Below are positions 3-63,998 of a stretch of DNA of 64,000 bases, piece by piece; the first letter of the stretch is position 1, and every line of letters begins with the position of its first letter. Made by a program: the position numbers and the translations under genes. The stretch covers positions 2,363,501-2,427,500 of the forward strand of contig NZ_CP060131.1 in assembly GCF_014235185.1 (NCBI RefSeq). The letters run 5' to 3'. The notes under the pieces are model-generated. The model searched no databases. It saw only the letters and a program-made list of their open reading frames with translations, and was not told the origin of the DNA. Origin of the DNA: Pseudonocardia petroleophila (lineage in GTDB: Bacteria; Actinomycetota; Actinomycetes; Mycobacteriales; Pseudonocardiaceae).

Positions 3-314
3 GCGGCCCGCGCCGCGGGTCATCCCGACGTCGTCGCGCCGCCCACCTTCGCCGTCACGTTCACGATGCCGCTGATCGAGGGCTTCCTGCGCGACCCGGC
101 GCTCGGCTGGGACTACTCGCGGATGGTCCACGGCGACCAGTCGATCGTGCTGCACCGCCCGATCCACGGCGGCGACGAGCTGGTCACCGTGATCCACGTC
201 GACGACCTCAGCACCCGTGCGGGCAGCCACATGCTCACGCTGCGCTGCGAGGTCTCCGACGTCGACGGCACCCCGGTCGCCACCACGAAGGCACTGCTGG
301 TGACGGCCGGATGA
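3..314 (+). CDS. hadA: (3R)-hydroxyacyl-ACP dehydratase subunit HadA, 3' part only
   Basis: The gene enters from the left edge, so its start and about a third of the protein are missing. The frame is open from base 3 and reads AARAAGHPDVVAPPTFAVTF before the visible Met at base 66. The fold is the hot-dog dehydratase type (MaoC-like N-terminal domain). In mycobacteria HadA pairs with HadB to dehydrate 3-hydroxyacyl-ACP during FAS-II chain elongation. The assignment rests on the APPTFAV segment and on the order hadA-hadB-tRNA-Trp-secE-nusG, which matches mycobacteria. The stop overlaps the hadB start by four bases (ATGA), so the two are translationally coupled. Whether the substrate is a mycolic-acid precursor or an ordinary fatty acid cannot be told here. 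Confidence 0.85.
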   Translation, partial: AARAAGHPDVVAPPTFAVTFTMPLIEGFLRDPALGWDYSRMVHGDQSIVLHRPIHGGDELVTVIHVDDLSTRAGSHMLTLRCEVSDVDGTPVATTKALLVTAG

Positions 315-721
315 GCGACGTCGAGAAGGGCACCGAGCTGCCCCCGCTGGAGCTGCGCGTCACCCGAGCCGACCTGGTCCGCTACGCGGGCGCCTCCGGC
401 GACCTCAACCCGATCCACTGGAGCGACCGCGTCGCCACCGGCGTCGGGCTCCCCGGCGTCATCGCGCACGGGATGCTGACGATGGCGCTGGCCGGCCGGT
501 TCGTCACGGCGTGGGTGGGCGACCCGTCCGCGGTGCGCAGCTACGGCGTCCGCTTCACCCGCCCCGTGGTCGTCCCCGACGACGACGAGGGCGCGCTGGT
601 CGAGCTGTCCGGCAAGGTCACCGACGTGACGGGCGGGATCGCCACGGTCGCGATCACCGCCCGGTTCGACGGGAAGACCGTGCTGGGGCGGGCCGTGGCC
701 GAGGTCGCGCTCCCGTCCTGA
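311..721 (+). CDS. hadB: (3R)-hydroxyacyl-ACP dehydratase subunit HadB (MaoC family)
   Basis: 136-residue single hot-dog domain, close to the usual HadB length. The hydratase-2 motif GDLNPIHW carries the catalytic pair Asp31 and His36. VIAHGMLTMALAG and WVGDPSAV follow, as in mycobacterial HadB. HadB supplies the active site and HadA helps bind the acyl chain; together they dehydrate 3-hydroxyacyl-ACP in fatty-acid elongation. The ATG lies inside the hadA stop region (ATGA overlap), giving a two-gene operon. No third subunit gene (hadC) follows; a small protein and tRNA-Trp come next. Confidence 0.92.
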   Translation: MSDVEKGTELPPLELRVTRADLVRYAGASGDLNPIHWSDRVATGVGLPGVIAHGMLTMALAGRFVTAWVGDPSAVRSYGVRFTRPVVVPDDDEGALVELSGKVTDVTGGIATVAITARFDGKTVLGRAVAEVALPS

Positions 722-3024: not shown

Positions 3025-3747
3025 ATGGCACAGCGCAGCAAGGCCTACCGCGAAGCCGCGGAGAAGATCGACAAGGACAACCTGTACACGCCGCTCCAGG
3101 CCGCCAACCTGGCCAAGGAGACGGCGAGCACGAAGATGGACGCCACCGTCGAGGTCGCGATGCGCCTCGGTGTCGACCCCCGCAAGGCCGACCAGATGGT
3201 CCGCGGCACGGTCAACCTGCCGCACGGCACGGGCAAGACCGCCCGCGTCATCGTGTTCGCCACCGGTGACAAGGCCGCCGAGGCCGAGGCCGCCGGCGCC
3301 GACGTCGTGGGCGCCGAGGACCTCATCGAGCGGATCCAGGGCGGGTGGCTCGACTTCGACGCCGCCATCGCCACCCCGGACCAGATGGCCAAGGTCGGCC
3401 GGATCGCCCGCATCCTGGGCCCGCGCGGCCTGATGCCGAACCCGAAGACCGGCACCGTGACGCCCGACGTCACCAAGGCGGTCAACGACATCAAGGGCGG
3501 AAAGATCAACTTCCGCGTCGACAAGCAGGCCAACCTGCACATGGTGATCGGCAAGGCGTCGTTCGACACCGAGAAGCTGGTGGAGAACTACGGCGCCGCG
3601 CTGGACGAGATCCTGCGCGCCAAGCCGAGTGCGGCCAAGGGCAAGTACATCAAGAAGATCACGGTGAGCACGACGACGGGACCGGGCATCCCCGTCGACC
3701 CGCTGCGCACCCGCAACCTCCTGGTGGACGAGACCCCCTCGGCCTGA
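3025..3747 (+). CDS. rplA: 50S ribosomal protein L1
   Basis: 240 residues, full length. Signature [20 protein letters not shown] (from about residue 126) and [20 protein letters not shown] are typical of L1. L1 binds the mobile stalk of 23S rRNA near the E site and, in many bacteria, represses translation of its own L11-L1 mRNA. The gene ends 12 bases before a very strong hairpin, so the secE-nusG-rplK-rplA unit stops here; rplJ-rplL lie 20 kb further on, separated by accessory genes and the mce operon. Confidence 0.97.
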
Positions 3748-3758
3748 CACCGGACGCT

Positions 3759-3805
3759 CGACGAACGCCCCCGCCGCCCGATCCGGGCCGCGGGGGCGTT
3801 CGTCG
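3759..3805. terminator. bidirectional terminator between rplA and the CoA racemase gene
   Basis: A perfect 16-bp inverted repeat (3759-3774 with 3790-3805) around a 15-base loop. It sits between two convergent genes and can serve both. There is no U-tract, as is usual in high-GC actinobacteria. Confidence 0.85.
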
Positions 3806-3813
3806 TCCGGGGG

Positions 3814-4902
3814 TCAGCGCCAGTCGGCGAGCACCGACTCCACGTCCTCCGGGGCGGCGGGCGCCCCCGGGAGGTCCGGGACCGTGCGGGAGAAGCGGGG
3901 GGCGGGGGCGGCCTGCGCTACGCCGTCGGACTCCACGATCGTCGAGCGCGCCGCGATGTGCGGGTGCGCCGCGACCTCCCCGAACGCGAGCACGGGCGTG
4001 ACGCACGCGTCGGTGCCGCCGAAGACCGCGGCCCACTCGTCGCGGGTGCGGCCGGCGAAGGCCTCGGTGAACCGCGCGCGCAGCACGGGCCACTGCTCGC
4101 GGTCGTACTGCGGCGGCAGGTCGGCGGGGTCGATGCCCAGCCCGGTGAGCAGTGCCGCGTAGAACTGCGGCTCCAGCGACCCGACGGCGACGTGCTTGCC
4201 GTCGGCGCAGGTGTAGGTGTCGTAGAAGGGCGCGTGGCCGTCGAGGACGTTGGAGCCGCGCTCGTCGAGCCAGATCTTCCGCGACAGGAAGCCCCAGAAC
4301 ATCTGGCTCAGCAGCGACGCCCCGTCGACCATCGCGGCGTCGACGACCTGGCCCTGCCCGGACCGCCCCGCCTCCCACAGCGCGGAGAGCACCCCGACGA
4401 CGACCAGCATCGAGCCGCCGCCGAAGTCGCCGACCAGGTTCAGCGGCGGCACCGGGCGCTCGCCGGCCCGGCCGATGGCGTGCAGCGCACCGGTCAGCGA
4501 GATGTAGTTGATGTCGTGCCCGGCGCGCTGGGCCATCGGGCCGTCCTGGCCCCAGCCGGTCATCCGGGCGTAGACCAGCTTCGGGTTGCGCGCGTGGCAG
4601 TCGGCCGGGCCCACGCCGAGCCGCTCGGTGACGCCGGGCCGGTAGCCCTCGATCAGCACGTCGGCCCGCTCGGCCAGCCGCAGGACCGTCTCGACCCCCT
4701 CGGGCGACTTGAGGTCGGCGGCCACCCGGCGACGGCCGCGCAGCGTCGGGTCGGGGGCGTCGGCGTCGCCGAGCTGCAGCCCGCCCGGCCGGTCCACGCG
4801 CACGACCTGGGCCCCCAGGTCGGCGAGGATCATCGCGGCGTGCGGGCCCGGTCCGATCCCGGCCAGCTCCACGACCTTGCACCCTGCCAGCGGTCCACTC
4901 AC
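3814..4902 (-). CDS. CaiB/BaiF family protein, probable alpha-methylacyl-CoA racemase
   Basis: 362 residues from a GTG at 4902, chosen because GAGGAGG lies eight bases before it; a longer frame exists but has no ribosome site. The CaiB/BaiF fold is seen in [37 protein letters not shown] and [34 protein letters not shown] and [11 protein letters not shown] hold the His and Asp that act as acid/base in mycobacterial Mcr, and the length equals that of Mcr. Such enzymes epimerise 2-methyl-branched acyl-CoAs so that beta-oxidation can proceed; some relatives are CoA transferases, which remains the alternative. It follows a MocR regulator by 31 bases on the same strand and may be cotranscribed with it. 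Confidence 0.85.
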
Positions 4903-4933
4903 CCAAAGCCTCCTCGTGATCGTCGAGCCGACA

Positions 4934-6403
4934 CTAGGCGACCGCCACCGGTTCGGCGGTCGCACCCGCGTCGACGTGGTCGAGCCCGCGCCAGGCCAGC
5001 AGCAGCCGCTCCAGCGCGGCGTCGATGCGTTCGGGCCGCAGCGTGTAGGGCAGGCGCAGCCGCCGCTCGAACGCGCCGTCGAGCCCGAAGCGCGGTCCGG
5101 CGGCCAGCAGCACGTCGTGGCGGCGGGCGGCGACCGCGAGCCGGCTCGACACCGGTTCGCCGAGGTCGACCCACAGGCTCAGCCCGCCGCCGGGCCGCGA
5201 CGGCCGCCAGTGCGGGAAGTCCGCGGCGAGCCGTCCGAGCAGGTGGGCCCGCGCGGCGGTCAGCTCGGTGCGCCGCGCCGCGCTCACGGCGTCGACGTCG
5301 GCGAGCAGACGCGCGACGACGAGCTGCTCCAGCGCGGGCCCGCCGAGGTCGATCGACGCCCGCAGCGCCGCCAGCCGCCGGACCGTCGAGGCCGAGCCCC
5401 GGATCCACCCGACGCGCAGCCCGCCCCAGAACACCTTGCTCGCCGACCCGACGGTGAGCAGGTGCGCGGAGTCGCCGAACGTCGCCACCGGCGGGGGCAG
5501 CGGCCCGTCGAGCGCGAGCTCGGCCAGCGTCTCGTCGACGACGAGCGCGGTGCCGGTGCGGCGGGTGAGGTCGACGAGCCGCTCGCGGCCCGCGGCGTCG
5601 AGCACGGCGCCGGTGGGGTTCTGGAACTCCGGGATGACGTACGCCAGGCGCGGGGCGGCGTCGCGGACGGCGGCGGCGAGCAGGTCGAGGTCCCAGCTCC
5701 CGGTGCCGTCCGGGCCCGCGCCCATCGGCAGCGGCACGGCCCGGGCGCCGCGGGCCGCGACGGCGTCGAGGGCGTTGGGGTAGGTCGGGTGCTCGACGAG
5801 GACGCGGTCCCCGGGTGCGGTGAACGCGGCGAGCACCAGCCCGATCGCGCTCTGCGCGCCCGCGGTGACCAGCACCTGGTCCGGCGAGGTGGGCAGCCCG
5901 CGGTGGGTGAACCGGTCGGCGATCGCGGTGCGCAGCGCGGGGAGCCCGAGCAGGTCGTAGCCGTGGCCGCCGAGCAGGGCGTCGAGGTCGTGGACGGCGC
6001 CCGCCGCGGCCCGGCGCAGCTCCTCTCCGGGCGCGGGGAGGGCGGCGTGGGCCAGGTCGTACAGCGACCGGTCGCCGTGCGGGGAGAACGGCGACTGCGT
6101 CGTGGCGCCCGCGGGACCGTCGGGGAGCCGGGTCCAGCTGCCGGACCCGCGCCTGCTGAGCAGGACGCCGGCGTCGCGCAGCGCGTCGTAGGCGGCGGCG
6201 ACGGTGGTGCGGCTGACGCCCAGCGCCCCGGCCAGCTCGCGCTCGGCGGGCACCCGCGTCTGCAGCGGGAGCCGCCCGTCCAGGACGAGGAGCCGGACGC
6301 GGTCGGCGAGCGCGTCGGCGAGACCCCGCCCGTCCGGTGGCCGCCACTCGCCGAGCAGCCGGGCGAAGCTGCGCGCGCCGATCCGACGGTCCACGTCGTT
6401 CAT
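4934..6403 (-). CDS. MocR-type regulator (GntR winged helix fused to aminotransferase-like domain)
   Basis: 489 residues from the ATG at 6403, with AAGGTGG just upstream; the frame stays open further 5' but that part is shadow sequence. Residues ~25-90 form a GntR winged helix ([20 protein letters not shown]). The rest is a fold-type I aminotransferase domain with [11 protein letters not shown] around residues 255-265, ALVVDET around 286, and the PLP-binding lysine at about residue 323 in GSASKVF. MocR proteins use PLP, or an amine adduct of it, as signal and usually control neighbouring genes. An inverted repeat lies 19 bases upstream of the start. The CoA racemase follows downstream. The effector is unknown. 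Confidence 0.88.
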
Positions 6404-28393: not shown

Positions 28394-28607
28394 GCCTCTT
28401 TGCGCTGCCTCCGTCCAGCTTCGCGCGCGCATCGAGGAGTCCACCCCGGTGGTCCACCCCGAAACGCTCGCGAAGGTGGTCGGCGGCCGCGCCCTGACAA
28501 CAGACGGCGTGACCCGGATCTTCCCGCTCCTACCGGACTGAACGAAACGGTAGCGCGAGGAACCCGGAGCACGCCAGATGAAGAGCGCAGTTCCGGAAGG
28601 ACGCATC

Positions 28608-32138
<3,531 letters not shown>

Positions 32139-57423: not shown

Positions 57424-57773
57424 TGGACGTCGCCGTACTGGCCGCCGACGCGGCCGAGGCGGGCTCGTCGGGCCTGCTCGCCAACATCGCGATCCTCGTC
57501 CTGGCCGGCTTCGTCGGCTTCGCGGTGATCTCGAAGGTGCCCAACACGCTGCACACGCCGCTCATGTCGGGCACGAACGCCATCCACGGCATCGTGCTGC
57601 TCGGCGGCCTGATCGTGCTCGGCCGGCTGGAGAACCCCTCCGTCGGCGACGCGATCATCCTGGTGGTCGCGATCGCCTTCGGCATGATCAACGTGATCGG
57701 CGGATTCCTGGTCACCGACCGGATGCTCGGCATGTTCAAGGCCAAGCCCGTGCAGAAGAAGGGCGACTCCTGA
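57423..57773 (+). CDS. pntAB: NAD(P) transhydrogenase alpha subunit, membrane part
   Basis: 116 residues with three or four membrane helices (IAILVLAGFVGFAVISKVPN, HGIVLLGGLIVLGRL, IILVVAIAFGMINVIGGFLV, TDRMLGMF). The VPNTLHTPLMSGTNAIHGIV segment is the family signature. With the helices of PntB it forms the proton channel. Coupled at both ends by TGATG. Confidence 0.95.
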   Translation: MDVAVLAADAAEAGSSGLLANIAILVLAGFVGFAVISKVPNTLHTPLMSGTNAIHGIVLLGGLIVLGRLENPSVGDAIILVVAIAFGMINVIGGFLVTDRMLGMFKAKPVQKKGDS

Positions 57774-59155
57774 TGGACGTGCTGATCCCGGTCCTCTACA
57801 TCATCGCCTTCGGCCTGTTCATCTACGGCCTGATGGGGCTCACCGGCCCGAAGACGGCGGTGCGCGGCAACAAGATCGCCGCGGTCGGCATGACGATCGC
57901 CGTGGTCGCCACGCTGCTCACCGTCACGCACAACTGGATCCTGATCATCGTCGGGCTCGTGATCGGCACGGTCCTGGGCGTGCCGTCGGCCCAGAAGGTG
58001 CAGATGACGGCGATCCCGCAGATGGTCGCGCTGTTCAACGGCGTCGGCGGTGGCGCGGTGGCGCTGATCGCGTGGTCGGAGTTCCGCACCACGGAGTCGT
58101 TCTCCGGCGAGCCGACCTACGTGATCGTCGCGTCGCTGTTCGCGGCGATCATCGGCTCGGTCTCGTTCTGGGGCTCGATCATCGCCTACGGCAAGCTGCA
58201 GGAGATCCTCCCCGGCCGCCCGATCGGGCTCGGCCGCGCGCAGCAGTTCGTCAACCTGCTGCTGCTGGCCGGCGCGATCGCGTGCGCCGTCGTGGCCGGG
58301 CTGGGCGGGGCGGCCGAGATCTGGATCATCGGGCTGCTGGTGGTCGCGGCGGTGCTCGGCGTGCTCGTGGTGCTGCCCATCGGCGGCGCCGACATGCCGG
58401 TCGTCATCTCGCTGCTCAACGCGCTCACCGGCCTCTCGGCGGCGGCGGCCGGCCTCGCGCTCGACAACACCGCGATGATTGTCGCGGGCATGATCGTCGG
58501 GGCGTCGGGCTCGATCCTGACCAACCAGATGGCCGTGGCGATGAACCGCACGATCCCGGCGATCGTCGCGGGCGGGTTCGGCGGAACCACGCTGGTGCCC
58601 GGCGCCGACGACGGCGTCGACCGCACCGTGAAGTCGACGTCCGCGGCCGACGCCGCGGTCCAGATGGCGTACGCGTCGTCGGTGATCGTGGTGCCCGGCT
58701 ACGGGCTCGCCGTCGCGCAGGCGCAGCACGCCGTCAAGGACATGGCGAAGCTGCTCGAGGCGAAGGGCGTCGAGGTCAAGTACGCCATCCACCCCGTCGC
58801 CGGGCGCATGCCGGGGCACATGAACGTCCTGCTCGCCGAGGCCGACGTCTCCTACGACGCGCTCAAGGAGATGGACGACATCAACGACGAGTTCTCCCGC
58901 ACCGACGTCACGCTGGTGATCGGGGCGAACGACGTCACCAACCCGGCGGCGCGGTCGGACTCGTCGAGCCCGATCTACGGGATGCCGATCCTCAACGTCG
59001 ACCAGAGCCACTCGGTCATCGTGCTCAAGCGCTCGATGAGCAGCGGCTTCGCCGGCATCGACAACCCGCTGTTCTACGCCGACAACACCTCGATGCTGTT
59101 CGGTGACGCGAAGAAGTCGGTCGCGGAGGTCACCGAGGAGCTCAAGGCGCTGTAG
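57773..59155 (+). CDS. pntB: NAD(P) transhydrogenase beta subunit
   Basis: 460 residues. About eight or nine membrane helices, then the NADP-binding domain III: VIVVPGYGLAVAQAQHAVKD, HPVAGRMPGHMNVLLAEADV, DVTLVIGANDVTNPAARSDS and VLKRSMSSGFAGIDNPLFYA. The complete enzyme uses the proton gradient to make NADPH from NADH. Last gene of the operon; a leaderless-type promoter for the next gene starts 14 bases later and no strong hairpin intervenes. Confidence 0.96.
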   Translation: MDVLIPVLYIIAFGLFIYGLMGLTGPKTAVRGNKIAAVGMTIAVVATLLTVTHNWILIIVGLVIGTVLGVPSAQKVQMTAIPQMVALFNGVGGGAVALIAWSEFRTTESFSGEPTYVIVASLFAAIIGSVSFWGSIIAYGKLQEILPGRPIGLGRAQQFVNLLLLAGAIACAVVAGLGGAAEIWIIGLLVVAAVLGVLVVLPIGGADMPVVISLLNALTGLSAAAAGLALDNTAMIVAGMIVGASGSILTNQMAVAMNRTIPAIVAGGFGGTTLVPGADDGVDRTVKSTSAADAAVQMAYASSVIVVPGYGLAVAQAQHAVKDMAKLLEAKGVEVKYAIHPVAGRMPGHMNVLLAEADVSYDALKEMDDINDEFSRTDVTLVIGANDVTNPAARSDSSSPIYGMPILNVDQSHSVIVLKRSMSSGFAGIDNPLFYADNTSMLFGDAKKSVAEVTEELKAL

Positions 59156-59181: not shown

Positions 59182-61755
59182 GTGGTGGCCGTGCTCGCCC
59201 TCGCCGACGTCGGACGCGCCGACGTCGCGCTGGCCGGTGGCAAGGGCGCGAACCTCGGCGAGCTGATGCGGGCCGGGCTGCCGGTGCCGCCCGGTTTCGT
59301 GGTCCCCACCCCGGCCTACGCCGCCTTCGTGGCCGACGCGGGGATCGGGGCCGAGGTGGTGGCGCTGGCCCGGGCCGGGGAGCCCGACGCGGCCGACCGG
59401 ATCGGGGCGCTGTTCGCCGGGCACCCGCTGACCGGACCCGTGGCCGACGCGGTGGTGCGGGCCTACGCCGACCTCGGCGGCGGTCCGGTCGCGGTCCGCT
59501 CCTCGGCCACCGTGGAGGACCTCGAGGGCGCCAGCTCCGCCGGGCAGCAGGACACCTACCTGCACCGCACCGGGGCCGACGCGGTGCTCGCGGCCGTCCG
59601 CGACTGCTGGGCCTCGCTGTGGACCGCGCGGGCGATGGCCTACCGCGCCCGCGCGGGCGTCGACCCGGGGTCGGTGAGCCTGGCCGTCGTGGTGCAGCGG
59701 ATGGTCGCGGCGCGCTCGTCGGGCGTCCTGTTCACCGCCGACCCGGCCAGCGGGCGTCGCGACCGGGCGGCGGTGAGCGCGGCGTGGGGGCTGGGTGAGT
59801 CGGTCGTCGGTGGCACGGTGAGCACCGACGACCTCGTCGTCGACACGGCCACCGGCGCCGTCGTCAGCCGGACGGTGGCCGACAAGGCGGTGATGACGGT
59901 CGCCACCGCGACCGGGACGCGCGAGGACCCGGTGCCGGAGAACCGGCGCCGGACGGCGGTGCTCGACGACGCCGCGGCGGCCGAGCTGGTGGCGCTCGGC
60001 GTCCGGATCGCCGGGCTGTTCGGCTCGCCCCAGGACGTCGAGTGGGCGCGCGACGCCGACGGGGCGTTCCACGTCGTCCAGGCCCGGCCGATCACCGCGC
60101 TGCCGGAGCCGACCGGCGACGTGCCGACGAGCTGGCCGGTGCCCCACCCGGGCGGCACGTACTTCCGCGCGAGCATCGTCGAACAGCTGCCCGACCCCCT
60201 GACGCCGCTGTTCGCCGACCTGGTCGACGGCTCGGTGAGCCGCTCGCTCGGCGCGCTCATGGCGACCGCGTTCGGCGCCCCGCTGCGCGACGGTGACCTG
60301 TCGTTCCCCACCGTCAACGGCTACGCGTACTACTTCTACCGCAACACCGGACTGATCCGGATGCTGCTGCGCACGCCGCAGGCCGGGCGGGCGCTGCTCG
60401 GGCGCGGCGCCGGTGAGCTGCGCGGCGGCGTCGACGGGTGGCGGGAGCGGTCGCACCCCGCCTACGTCGCCGAGGTGCGCGCGTGGTCCGGTCGCGACCC
60501 GGCCGGGCTCACCGGCGCCGAGATCCTCGACGGCGTGGGCGCCCTGCTCGACGCGGGCACGCGGTACTACACGGCGGTGCAGTCGATCATCCCGCTCGCG
60601 GCTGGGTCGGAGATCGTGTTCGCCGCGTTCTACGACGCGCTCGTGCGCCGCGCCGGCGACCCGGCCGCGTCGACGTTCCTCGTGGGTTTCGACAGCCGTC
60701 CGCTGCAGGCCGAGACGTCCCTCTACGACCTCGCGCACGCCCCGCGCGACGCCGCCTGGGACGAGCGGTTCCGCGCCCACCTCGCCGCGTTCGGGCACAC
60801 CGTCTACAACCTGGACTTCGCGAGCCCCGTCCCCGCAGACGACCCCGGGCCGCTGCACGCGACGATCCGGTTCTTCGCCGACGGCGGGGGCACCGACCCC
60901 TACGAGCGGCAGCGCCGCGCGGCCGCGCTGCGCGACGAGCTGACCCGCGTCACCCGGGCCCGGCTCGACCCGCTGCGGCGCGCGCTGTTCGACCGGCTGC
61001 TCGCCGCCGCGCAGCGCACCGGGCCGGTGCGCGAGGACGCGCTGGCCGACGTCGGGCTGGCCTGGCCCGCGATGCGCCGGATGCTGCGCGAGCTCGGGCG
61101 CCGGCTCGTCGACGACGGGGTGGTGGCCGACGCCGACGACGTGTTCTGGCTGCGGCACGCCGAGCTGCGCGGCTACGTCGACGGCGTGCGCGCCGACCAC
61201 CGGGCCGACGTCGACGCGCGGCGGATGGTCTGGCGCGGGCAGCGCCGGGCCACCCCGCCGCAGCTGCTGCCCGAGCGGCCCTGGATGAGCCGCCTGCTCG
61301 GGGCGGTGATGCCGGGCCGCGAGGGCGTGCAGACCGGCCCGGTCGTCCGCGGCACCGGCGCGAGCGCGGGGCAGGTGACGGCCCGGGCCCGCGTCCTCGA
61401 CGGGCCGGGCGACTTCGCCGACCTCGTACCGGGCGAGGTGCTCGTCGCCCGCATCACCACCCCCGCGTGGACGCCGCTGTTCGCGATGGCCGCCGCCGTC
61501 GTCACCGACATCGGCGGGCCGCTGAGCCACGGGTCGATCGTCGCCCGTGAGTACGGCATCCCGGCGGTGCTCGGCACGGGGTCGGCGACCGGCCGGATCC
61601 GGACCGGGCAGCCGGTGCGGGTCGACGGGGACGCCGGCACCGTGACGCTGCTCGACGAGCCCGCCGCCGCGGAGCCCGCCGTCCCCCGGCGGTGGCCGGG
61701 GTGGGTGGCGGCGGCCGTCGTCGCCGGGCTGATCGTCCGTCGCCTGCGCCGCTGA
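59182..61755 (+). CDS. PEP synthase/rifampin-phosphotransferase-like protein with C-terminal membrane segment
   Basis: 857 residues. N-terminal ATP-grasp (PEP/pyruvate-binding type): GGKGANLGEL with Lys21, AVRSSATVEDLEGASSAGQQ with Arg106, and DVEW...VVQARPIT near 280-310. The C-terminal swivelling phosphohistidine domain has GGPLSHGSIVAREYGIPAVL with catalytic His783. The middle ~450 residues lack a PEP-synthase TIM barrel, so order and length match rifampin phosphotransferases (ATP domain, substrate domain, His domain). Unlike those, it ends with a likely membrane helix (WPGWVAAAVVAGLIV, ~841-855) and basic residues. The substrate may be rifamycin or another hydroxyl compound; this is open. 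Confidence 0.75.
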   Translation: MVAVLALADVGRADVALAGGKGANLGELMRAGLPVPPGFVVPTPAYAAFVADAGIGAEVVALARAGEPDAADRIGALFAGHPLTGPVADAVVRAYADLGGGPVAVRSSATVEDLEGASSAGQQDTYLHRTGADAVLAAVRDCWASLWTARAMAYRARAGVDPGSVSLAVVVQRMVAARSSGVLFTADPASGRRDRAAVSAAWGLGESVVGGTVSTDDLVVDTATGAVVSRTVADKAVMTVATATGTREDPVPENRRRTAVLDDAAAAELVALGVRIAGLFGSPQDVEWARDADGAFHVVQARPITALPEPTGDVPTSWPVPHPGGTYFRASIVEQLPDPLTPLFADLVDGSVSRSLGALMATAFGAPLRDGDLSFPTVNGYAYYFYRNTGLIRMLLRTPQAGRALLGRGAGELRGGVDGWRERSHPAYVAEVRAWSGRDPAGLTGAEILDGVGALLDAGTRYYTAVQSIIPLAAGSEIVFAAFYDALVRRAGDPAASTFLVGFDSRPLQAETSLYDLAHAPRDAAWDERFRAHLAAFGHTVYNLDFASPVPADDPGPLHATIRFFADGGGTDPYERQRRAAALRDELTRVTRARLDPLRRALFDRLLAAAQRTGPVREDALADVGLAWPAMRRMLRELGRRLVDDGVVADADDVFWLRHAELRGYVDGVRADHRADVDARRMVWRGQRRATPPQLLPERPWMSRLLGAVMPGREGVQTGPVVRGTGASAGQVTARARVLDGPGDFADLVPGEVLVARITTPAWTPLFAMAAAVVTDIGGPLSHGSIVAREYGIPAVLGTGSATGRIRTGQPVRVDGDAGTVTLLDEPAAAEPAVPRRWPGWVAAAVVAGLIVRRLRR

Positions 61756-61774: not shown

Positions 61775-63283
61775 ATGGACCTCCCGGCCCCGATCGTCGC
61801 CGTCACCGTGCACCCCCGCCGCGCCCGCGTGACGCGGCGCGCCCGGGCGGCCGTCGCGGCCGGGCGGACCGATCTCGTCGTCGCCGACCTCCCGCCCACG
61901 CTGCTGCCGGACTCGGTGCGCGCGGTGGCGGGCGGGGCCCGGGTCGTCGGCGTCGACGTGCTCCGGCGCGACCTCGCGGAGGTGCCCGACGACCGCGTGC
62001 GGGCCGCGGAGGCCGCGGTGCGCGACGCGGAGCGCGCGCTCGCGGCCGTCGACGGGGCCGACGCGGGCGAGTCCGCCCGCGAGGACCTGCTGCGCCGGCT
62101 CGCGCTGCGCAGCGGCGACCGGCTCGCAGCCGCGCTGGCCGACGGGTCGGCCGAGCCGGCCCGGGCGGGGGAGATCGGGGCGGCGGTGGCCGCGCAGATC
62201 ACCGAGGTCGCAGCGGCCCGCCGCGCCCACGCCGAGGCCCGGGTCGACGCCGGGCACCGGCTCACCGCAGCCCGCGCCGAGCTCGACCGGCTGCGCGGCT
62301 CCGCCCGCACCCGGCGCGAGGCGGTGATCGGGATCGAGGCCGACGCGGCGGGCGACGTCGACGTCGAGCTGACCTACGTGGTCGACGGCGCGAGCTGGAC
62401 GTCGGCCTACGACGCCCGCCTCGACGACGACGGCCGCGTCACGCTCACCTGGTTCGGGATGGTCGTCCAGGAGACCGGGGAGGACTGGCCGGCGTGCGAG
62501 CTGACCCTGTCGACGGCCCGGCCCTCGGTCACCACGACGCTGCCCGAGCTGGAGCCGTGGTGGATCGACCTCGCCCGGCCGCGGCCGGAGATCGCGATGG
62601 CCGCCGGGGCGGTGCCCGCGGCCCCGCTGCTGCGGGGCAAGGCGGTGGAGGCCGTCCCCGAGGAGGGGCTCGCGGCGGGCACCTGGCGGCTCGCCCGGCC
62701 CACCGCGGTCGCCGCCGACGGCACCCCGCACCGCACGACGGTCACGACGGTGCGGGCCGACGCCCGCCTCGACCACCTCGCCGTCCCCGTGCTGGGTCCC
62801 GACGCGCACCTGCGGGCCACGCTCGTCAACCCGAGCGGGCACGTGCTGCCGGCCGGGCCGGTGTCGACGTTCCTGGCCGACGCCTACGTCGGCACGACGG
62901 CGCTGGAGACCACCGCGCCCGACGGCGGGATCGAGCTCGCGCTGGGCGTCGACGACCGGGTGGTGGTGGAGCGCGAGCTGGAGTCGCGCACCGCGCACCG
63001 GGCGCGGTTCGGTGCGCAGCGGGGCGCGGTGCAGCGCTGGCGCACCACGGTCACCAACCACCGGCCCGCCGAGGCGCGCGTGGTGGTGCGGGACCGGCTC
63101 CCGGTGTCGCGCGCGGCGGAGGTGAAGGTCGTCGAGGTCGAGCTGGTGCCCGAGCCGGCCGAGCGCGACGAGCTGGGCCGCTGCGAGTGGGTCGCGCGGA
63201 TCCCGCCGGGCGGCCGCTGGGAGGTCTCCGTGCGGTACGGGGTGGAGCATCCGAAGGACGTCGGGGTCACCGGCTACCGTTGA
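61775..63283 (+). CDS. DUF4139/DUF4140 (MuiA-like) protein
   Basis: 502 residues from ATG 61775. The N-terminal DUF4140 part (VAVTVHPRRARVTRRARAAV; GRTDLVVADLPPTLLPDSVR) is followed by an Ala/Arg-rich helical stretch (~residues 80-180, probable coiled coil) and the DUF4139 part beginning at VDVELTYVVDGASWTSAYDA, with LTLSTARPS, LVNPSGHVLPAGPVSTFLAD and VTNHRPAEARVVVRDRLPVS. The name of the family comes from a mucoidy inhibitor; its biochemical role is unknown. No signal peptide, so probably cytosolic. It stands close behind the phosphotransferase-like gene but with its own promoter candidate. Confidence 0.82.
   Translation: MDLPAPIVAVTVHPRRARVTRRARAAVAAGRTDLVVADLPPTLLPDSVRAVAGGARVVGVDVLRRDLAEVPDDRVRAAEAAVRDAERALAAVDGADAGESAREDLLRRLALRSGDRLAAALADGSAEPARAGEIGAAVAAQITEVAAARRAHAEARVDAGHRLTAARAELDRLRGSARTRREAVIGIEADAAGDVDVELTYVVDGASWTSAYDARLDDDGRVTLTWFGMVVQETGEDWPACELTLSTARPSVTTTLPELEPWWIDLARPRPEIAMAAGAVPAAPLLRGKAVEAVPEEGLAAGTWRLARPTAVAADGTPHRTTVTTVRADARLDHLAVPVLGPDAHLRATLVNPSGHVLPAGPVSTFLADAYVGTTALETTAPDGGIELALGVDDRVVVERELESRTAHRARFGAQRGAVQRWRTTVTNHRPAEARVVVRDRLPVSRAAEVKVVEVELVPEPAERDELGRCEWVARIPPGGRWEVSVRYGVEHPKDVGVTGYR
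63275..63280 (+). promoter_or_regulatory. putative leaderless -10 before the methyltransferase gene
   Basis: TACCGT seven bases before the ATG at 63288, inside the last codons of the DUF4139 gene. Confidence 0.5.
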
Positions 63284-63287
63284 CCGC

Positions 63288-63998
63288 ATGATCGATCTGG
63301 ACGGGGTGGTGGCGCTCTACCGCACCCACGCCGCCGACCTGTCCGCCGTGGTCGCCCGGCAGCGCGCGTTCCGCGAGGCCACGCCGTCGATGACCCCGCA
63401 GCTCGACGACGTCGAGGCCGAGGTCACCTACCTGCTCCTGCGCGACGCCCGCCCGGCGCACGTGATGGAGCTGGGCACGTTCCACGGCTGGTCGACGACC
63501 TGGATCCTGCAGGCGCTGCGCGACAACGGATCCGGGCACCTGCACTCGTTCGACCGCATCGACAACGTGCGCCGCACCGTCCCGCGCGAGCTGGCGCAGG
63601 ACCGGTGGACGTTCGTGCACGGCGACGTGCGCGAGCGGCTCGCGGACGTGCCGCGCGCGGCCGGCTACCTGTTCGTCGACGCGGCGCACACCGCGTCGTT
63701 CGCGCGGTGGTTCCTCGCGGAGCTGTTCCCGCTCGTGCCCGCCGGGATCCCGGTGAGCGTGCACGACGTGCACCACGGGCGGCGGGTCCTGCCGTTCACC
63801 GAGGGCGCGGTGCTGCTGCGGTGGATGCGCGAGCACGGCGTCGACGGGTTCACGGCGTCGCGGCGGCGGGCACCGGGGGTGTTCGCGCGGCTCGCGGCGG
63901 TGCGCGAGGAGCTCGGGCTCACCGGGGCGCGGGGGACGACCCGCAACCCGATGCTGTGGTTCACGATGCCGGAGCCGGCGACGTCGGCGCGGAGCTGA
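63288..63998 (+). CDS. class I SAM-dependent methyltransferase
   Basis: 236 residues, complete just before the right edge. SAM motif I is HVMELGTFHGWSTTWILQAL (~residues 58-77), the acidic post-I position is in HLHSFDRIDNVRR, and YLFVDAAHTASFARWFLAEL holds the DxxH motif typical of the Methyltransf_24 type, with SVHDVHHGRR after it. The D-x-H pattern suggests a metal-assisted O-methyl or sugar methyl transfer, but the acceptor is unknown. It starts four bases after the DUF4139 stop. Confidence 0.8.
   Translation: MIDLDGVVALYRTHAADLSAVVARQRAFREATPSMTPQLDDVEAEVTYLLLRDARPAHVMELGTFHGWSTTWILQALRDNGSGHLHSFDRIDNVRRTVPRELAQDRWTFVHGDVRERLADVPRAAGYLFVDAAHTASFARWFLAELFPLVPAGIPVSVHDVHHGRRVLPFTEGAVLLRWMREHGVDGFTASRRRAPGVFARLAAVREELGLTGARGTTRNPMLWFTMPEPATSARS

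Follow-up and report, generated by a model that had tools for sequence, protein, structure and literature searches.

What does the dikinase-like enzyme encoded at positions 59182 to 61755 of this stretch of the Pseudonocardia petroleophila genome phosphorylate, and where in the cell would it do so? The stretch, 64,000 nucleotides in length, is referred to here as the window. An original prediction had described the gene product as a rifampin phosphotransferase (RPH)-like enzyme with a C-terminal membrane anchor. Our analysis indicates that it is probably a single-chain dikinase of RPH fold, belonging to a separate and uncharacterized subfamily, that acts on a small-molecule acceptor other than a rifamycin and has its tail at the membrane. 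The gene and the parts of its product are as follows, with row counts referring to the family alignment introduced below.

59182..61755, + strand: dikinase-like gene, 857 amino acids, GTG start, stop included (open reading frame list and translation; homologues at 42-88% identity)
59227..60108, + strand: ATP-grasp domain, residues 16-309 (Pfam PPDK_N, E 4.8e-86)
60109..61341, + strand: middle domain, residues 310-720, predicted to have the fold of the RPH rifampin-binding domain, with sequence signatures of its own (model and VIA-align)
60181..60183, + strand: Glu334, aligned with RPH Gln337, Glu/Asp in 77/77 rows
61030..61035, + strand: Arg617-Glu618, equivalent to catalytic RPH Arg666-Glu667, invariant in 77/77 rows
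61042..61044, + strand: Leu621, aligned with RPH Lys670, Leu/Ile in 77/77 rows
61342..61665, + strand: swivelling phosphohistidine domain, residues 721-828 (Pfam PEP-utilizers; structural matches inside 718-829)
61528..61530, + strand: His783, the phosphate-carrying histidine, equivalent to RPH His825, invariant in 77/77 rows
61693..61752, + strand: C-terminal tail of 15 nonpolar residues (838-852) followed by RRLRR (853-857) (sequence; pattern retained in relatives)

The open reading frame list, Pfam, and the predicted models confirmed that, over 857 residues, an ATP-grasp domain is followed by a middle domain and then by a phosphohistidine domain. Pfam placed PEP-utilizers at residues 750-819 (E 8.1e-24). 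The same scan of the window protein revealed no family between PPDK_N and PEP-utilizers and no phosphoenolpyruvate (PEP)-binding barrel at the C-terminus, where just ~30 residues lie beyond the His domain. The whole protein was modeled by AlphaFold2 from 33 sequences, with a mean predicted local distance difference test (pLDDT) value of 87.9 and a predicted template modeling score of 0.80. Foldseek ranked Listeria RPH (5hv1) first for the whole model. With VIA-align, PEP synthase 2ols had the top Z of 38.2, approximately tied with 5hv1 at Z 37.8. The 2ols alignment covered 377 residues and stopped at chain residue 467 (chain 4..467), so the barrel is not part of the match, and the 5hv1 alignment covered 752 residues along the whole chain at 26% identity, with a high root-mean-square deviation (10.3) that fits a moved domain. 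The middle domain was also folded alone (414 residues, pLDDT 90.3) and was matched by VIA-align to six RPH-Lm entries with Z of 17.3-22.1 over 340-366 residues at 13-14% identity, the next chain having a Z of 6.3. Foldseek with the isolated domain returned the same six entries and no others at E <=0.001, and hhalign recognized the middle domain as RPH-like in its C-terminal half alone (Prob 97.1, E 5.5e-11). The VIA-align results for the whole model and for the isolated domain say nothing about families not listed there. The predicted structures bear out the earlier assignment to an RPH-like architecture rather than that of PEP synthase, as the isolated middle domain matched RPH-Lm well and a TIM barrel is missing.

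Relatives were collected by one scan of genome contigs, of which the best 80 of 280 loci (numbered here with the prefix L) were retained. Four of these (L039, L066, L071, and L072) were dropped for broken or partial frames, and the alignment comprised 77 full-length rows, 76 relatives and the window protein. The relatives came from Pseudonocardia, Arthrobacter, Pseudarthrobacter, Actinomycetospora, Brachybacterium, Microlunatus, unplaced Actinobacteria, Anaerolineae, other Chloroflexota, and one member of the Acidobacteriaceae. The RPH ATP-site positions K21, R106, E287, Q300, and R302 were the same in 77/77 rows, and the ATP-site T125 was Thr in 71 rows and Ser in 6. In RPH-Lm, according to PMC4844700, both Arg666 and Glu667 are indispensable, and a network around the substrate phosphate includes Gln337 and Lys670. 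Beside the replacements of these last two listed above, the position of RPH Gln336 was occupied by Val/Ala/Ile in 77/77 rows. The most distant clade is said in that source to retain both the Arg-Glu and the Lys; the window branch retains the Arg-Glu and not the Lys. The family signatures REDAL, NGYAYY, and YNLDFA likewise differ from RPH. One genus orthologue that is not among the 77 rows, L094, carries Thr (REDAT) where RPH has Lys670; 18 other genus orthologues have REDAL. In a midpoint-rooted FastTree tree of 58 rows, the 31 family rows were monophyletic (support 0.957), with 8 RPH rows and two further groups of dikinases from the relatives falling outside this clade.

Two further observations concern the family at large. 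A stretch of the middle domain of ~34 residues, present in most other family members shown, is missing from the window protein and L009 (at residues 523-524, about position 60751). Across 62 genomes of the genus, the number of matches to the window protein ranged from 1 to 20 per genome, with one gene able to give two, which suggests that RPH-like dikinases are abundant in the genus.

The C-terminus of the window protein reads WPGWVAAAVVAGLIV-RRLRR, the end of the chain being PRRWPGWVAAAVVAGLIVRRLRR. The tail was modeled as a helix at 841-856 with pLDDT under or near 50 and is therefore read as flexible. Its core, with Arg on both sides, has a mean hydropathy of 1.87, equal to that of body segment 469-483, and the strongest 19-residue hydrophobic window in the protein body has 1.56. 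The summed Hessa-scale value of the core is +2.36 with what we take to be the scale values. Of 20 genus orthologues (L089-L108) found in 62 genomes, L099, L102, and L103 are without the tail and L106 has a broken frame; with L106 excluded from both the count and the tail tree, the tail was present in 16/19 orthologues having a complete C-terminus. Two Propionibacteriaceae, L066 and L069, also carry it. We defined the tail as at least 15 residues without R, K, D, E, N, Q, or H and with mean hydropathy of at least 1.3, followed, in the last 30 residues of the chain, by at least 3 R/K. This rule matched 7/77 family rows (relatives and window), 16/20 genus orthologues, and 51/467 neighbor proteins, or 10/276 of the neighbors having no other strong hydrophobic segment; six of these ten are similar copies of what are presumably CorA transporters. 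Seven pairs across the two sets of relatives look identical by identity and tail (L009/L091, L010/L097, L028/L105, L037/L101, L059/L096, L072/L107, and L073/L102).

Mapping of the trait onto a tree from which the tail had been left out gave 5 changes compared to a shuffled mean of 12.2, by a quick method with some forks open and near-copies present. The tails of relatives have a nonpolar stretch of 15-25 residues with 3-8 Arg/Lys after it, and Arg/Lys stands just before it in 18/19 tails measured. The linker and the exact letters vary and the pattern stays, which together with the number of changes marks the tail as inherited within part of the family. Judged from the sequences compared, it is a real and recurrent feature. 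The hydrophobic tail and RRLRR of the original prediction were thereby confirmed; that they form an anchor is an interpretation, given a core of just 15 nonpolar residues between arginines whose hydropathy of 1.87 does not exceed that of the body segment. The prediction was also right that the tail is unusual for the RPH family, yet it is common among the Pseudonocardia orthologues of this enzyme. For Pseudonocardia and some Propionibacteriaceae, attachment of the enzyme to the cytoplasmic membrane through this hydrophobic, Arg-capped tail is probable.

Examination of the rest of the genome revealed that rifamycin inactivation has other candidates. The window protein scored 390.5 bits with the RPH model NF041857, short of the cut-off of 999. 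A true RPH gene in the same genome (C1:768638-771193) scored 1402.9 bits, aligns to 5hv1 over nearly its whole length, and, unlike the window family, has Gln, Gln, and Lys at the 336, 337, and 670 positions. Matches above the RPH cut-off were held by 10 of 60 genomes searched, this one included. RPH clade A is delimited in PMC4844700 by >42% identity to RPH-Lm; the window protein has 26% over 752 residues, and its middle domain 13-14%.

Rifamycin-responsive genes of Actinobacteria are preceded by the rifamycin-associated element, a 19-base palindrome, as described in PMC10719064 and PMC8655204. Allowing at most one mismatch, two such sites were found in the 6.49-Mb genome, and a reversed control pattern gave none. 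The letters of the search pattern are those we take to define the element. One site (C1:768558-768576, GGGTCTTGCGGCAAGACCC) ends ~60 bases upstream of where the true rph starts, and the other (C1:554165-554183) adjoins the start of a rifampin monooxygenase gene (868.2 bits, cut-off 800). For rifamycin inactivation the genome thus has separate genes outside the window, and the window gene is not so marked: no element within 4 mismatches was present in the 64-kb window, and none lay upstream of the dikinase in 100 window-family loci (L009-L108) searched whole with 3 mismatches. Absence of the element is not decisive by itself, as among 10 RPH-type loci from this genome and relatives it was recognized (<=4 mismatches) in six (L119-L124) and not in L118, L125, L126, and L127. 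Matches did occur elsewhere in 6/100 family loci, namely in the first dikinase codons of L016, L057, and L061, inside the gene in L049, and, as 1-mismatch elements on the 3' side of the dikinase at distances of about 2.8 and 4.8 kb, in the Arthrobacter loci L026:10416-10434 and L044:12493-12511. The rpoB gene of the window (28578-32138) has an ordinary rifampicin-region sequence when read by eye at what we take to be the resistance positions, in keeping with the sensitivity previously ascribed to it. The rifampin-inactivating role that had been joined to this sensitivity is not supported, and the openly stated alternative of another acceptor was the right one.

Neighboring genes of the homologues were predicted with a simple gene caller and mostly named by eye. 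Clustering of 2863 flanking open reading frames from the best 80 of the 280 loci gave no cluster spanning >9 loci, and at that threshold there is thus no universal partner gene. Of nine Chloroflexota loci, six carry a gene for a major facilitator superfamily (MFS) transporter downstream of the dikinase (L076, L082, L083, L084, L086, and L088, the last with one gene between). The five tested, all but that of L084, scored highest among NCBIfam models with Tet(A)/(B)/(C), at 170-193 bits against a cut-off of 475, and so are related to that family without being members. A cluster of MalT-LuxR-type regulators was common to six loci, all Chloroflexota (Pfam on L088). TetR-type genes end about 20-40 bp upstream of the dikinase in L012, L035, L037, and L073 (Pfam on L012 and L037), and by sequence one overlaps the dikinase start in L099; MarR- and PadR-type genes adjoin L069 and L059, respectively. 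The likeliest class of acceptor is a xenobiotic or an endogenous toxic metabolite, in view of the TetR/MarR-type regulators beside some homologues and the drug-efflux-type transporters found next to those of Chloroflexota. With moderate confidence, we consider the protein a stand-alone small-molecule-modifying enzyme, with its own regulator in some lineages, whose likeliest role is detoxification.

In the window itself the dikinase gene has the following neighbors.

57773..59155, + strand: pntB, NAD(P) transhydrogenase beta subunit (Pfam PNTB), its stop 26 bp upstream of the dikinase
61775..63283, downstream of the dikinase: DUF4139/DUF4140 gene, MuiA family (275.8 bits vs 112.6)
63288..63998, downstream of the DUF4139 gene: methyltransferase gene (Pfam)

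The pntB gene is directly upstream of the dikinase in the four closest genomes (the window, L089, L090, and L091, the relatives by sequence). The DUF4139/DUF4140 gene 3' of the dikinase is present in L089 and not in L090/L091, where the dikinase gene shares its last 4 bases with the methyltransferase gene. Two observations bear on split dikinases. The same genome encodes an apparent two-chain pair of the HpeHI/PpsAB type (C1:6088130-6090135; L004, L007). In Chloroflexota, a His-domain protein without ATP-grasp stands beside a full-length dikinase (L084:1617-2831 and 3660-5339, L085:7565-9046, and L088:7607-9208, the families having been checked in L085 and L088), and by analogy with HpeH and HpeI this protein might borrow the ATP-grasp domain of its neighbor.

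The activity, substrate class, and membrane location of the enzyme, which we infer, would come together as follows. By analogy with RPH and PpsAB/HpeHI (PMC4844700 and PMC12167813), the ATP-grasp domain would pass the beta-phosphate of ATP to His783, and the His domain would then swing over to the middle domain. There a small molecule, probably a hydrophobic one, would receive the phosphate on a hydroxyl, with the conserved acid at 334, in place of the RPH Gln, possibly acting as general base. The products would be AMP, phosphate, and the phosphorylated molecule. The tail would keep the enzyme near an acceptor that partitions into the membrane.

Several observations weigh against parts of this reading. 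By Z alone, the whole model is equally near PEP synthase 2ols (38.2, over shared domains only) and RPH (37.8), and the RPH equivalences at positions 333-335 come from sequence alignment where similarity is low. The MFS proteins are just distantly Tet-like, the Arthrobacter neighbors are mostly other and varying genes, with an HspR-like heat-shock gene in several (by eye), and the window clade is placed behind pntAB; the Arthrobacter and pntAB contexts differ, so that the detoxification reading is carried by some lineages alone. Arthrobacter, Actinomycetospora, Brachybacterium, and Chloroflexota rows are without the tail, which would thus be dispensable for core activity. The window protein has a short tail of only moderate hydrophobicity. 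The presence of Arg on both sides of this tail, with more C-terminally, conflicts with the positive-inside rule for a spanning helix on a cytosolic enzyme, as on a cytosol-facing enzyme such a helix would leave the 3-8 Arg/Lys outside. Shallow or interfacial membrane attachment would suit the tail better than a spanning helix.

Other identities for the enzyme were weighed on the same evidence. A divergent, membrane-bound RPH that inactivates rifamycins would have the three-domain order, middle-domain fold, and catalytic Arg-Glu and His that are found here, rpoB looks sensitive, and 4/10 RPH-type loci are also without a recognizable element. We nonetheless consider it very improbable, given the 390.5 bits against 999 and the 1402.9 of another gene of the genome, the replacement of Gln336, Gln337, and Lys670 in 77/77 rows, the 13-14% identity of the middle domain to RPH-Lm in structural alignment, and the presence of the two elements at rph and the monooxygenase gene rather than within the window. 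Rifampin was accordingly rejected as acceptor. A PEP synthase or pyruvate phosphate dikinase has next to no likelihood: the ATP-grasp and His domains are shared, 2ols had the top Z for the whole model, and NCBIfam PRK06241 models of this architecture are named phosphoenolpyruvate synthase, but the PEP-binding barrel is missing, the middle domain matches RPH, and the PEP synthase model TIGR01418 gave 367.4 bits vs 739.75. This identity was rejected on domains and fold. An ATP-dependent ligase of RedH/PigC type, in which the phosphohistidine route would activate one partner for condensation with another, is suggested by a RedH score approximately equal to that of the best NCBIfam model for the window protein (PRK06241.1-3, 415.6 bits). 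It is distinctly unlikely, as neither curated cut-off was reached, the best-scoring stretch is the shared ATP-grasp part, and the neighbors tested by Pfam (pntB, DUF4139, and methyltransferase) are not of prodigiosin type; RedH/PigC family membership was rejected on the curated scores.

Two further alternatives concern the tail. It could be a flexible basic extension that binds polyanions such as nucleic acid, the ribosome, or acidic lipid head groups, rather than an anchor. The 3-8 Arg/Lys after the hydrophobic stretch, the Arg/Lys just before it in 18/19 tails measured, the mere 15 nonpolar residues in the window protein, and the low model confidence are all compatible with such a role, which we regard as possible but rather unlikely; a purely basic tail would not, however, require the nonpolar stretch of 15-25 residues to be retained while the linker and sequence vary. 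The second alternative, which we consider unlikely, is a membrane-tethered dikinase whose acceptor itself resides in the membrane, such as a polyprenol, a quinol, or another phenolic lipid, encoded behind pntAB in the window clade. If true, it would constitute a lipid- or quinol-phosphorylating branch within the RPH superfamily; to our knowledge, the known acceptors of the superfamily are soluble molecules such as antibiotics, phenols, and pyruvate.

The preferred reading, that of an RPH-fold dikinase with a small-molecule acceptor other than a rifamycin, has wider implications. The RPH superfamily is called large and unexplored in PMC4844700. One well-conserved branch of it, mainly from soil Actinobacteria and Chloroflexota, is now set apart, with catalytic residues intact and the substrate site remodeled. 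Neither this branch nor an RPH-like enzyme with such a tail was the subject of any paper in our literature search, which did not extend to most subscription journals. Domain order alone is evidently poor ground for naming genes phosphoenolpyruvate synthase or rifampin phosphotransferase. The recurrent hydrophobic tail hints at an acceptor that partitions into the membrane, and if the branch consists of drug- or toxin-modifying kinases, it would represent a reservoir of unrecognized inactivation chemistry.

Compared with known systems, the window protein is closest to RPH (RPH-Lm, 5hv1/5fbs, NF041857), with which it shares domain order, predicted middle-domain fold, ATP-site residues, Arg-Glu, and the catalytic His. 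It differs in its score (390.5/999 bits), in the replacement of Gln336, Gln337, and Lys670, in its own signatures and tail, and in having no rifamycin-associated element. It shares the ATP-grasp and His domains with PEP synthase 2ols and is without the TIM barrel of that enzyme. With RedH and PigC, scores of 415.3 and 362.6 bits vs cut-offs of 1350 and 1300 reflect likeness in shared domains, as for the other families. Single C-terminal hydrophobic segments are found in both the window protein and the tail-anchored proteins of Streptomyces coelicolor (PMC3087755), and relative to that set the window segment is short and has Arg on both sides. A C-terminal basic cluster is taken in the same source to suggest an N-terminus outside, which is hardly possible for an enzyme that would use ATP. 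The two-component phenolic dikinases HpeHI, CreHI, and PpsAB have an RPH-type mechanism and small-molecule acceptors according to PMC12167813. The ATP-grasp domain of the window protein aligned to HpeI (9goj) with Z 31.4; these systems consist of two chains, whereas the window enzyme is one chain of 857 amino acids.

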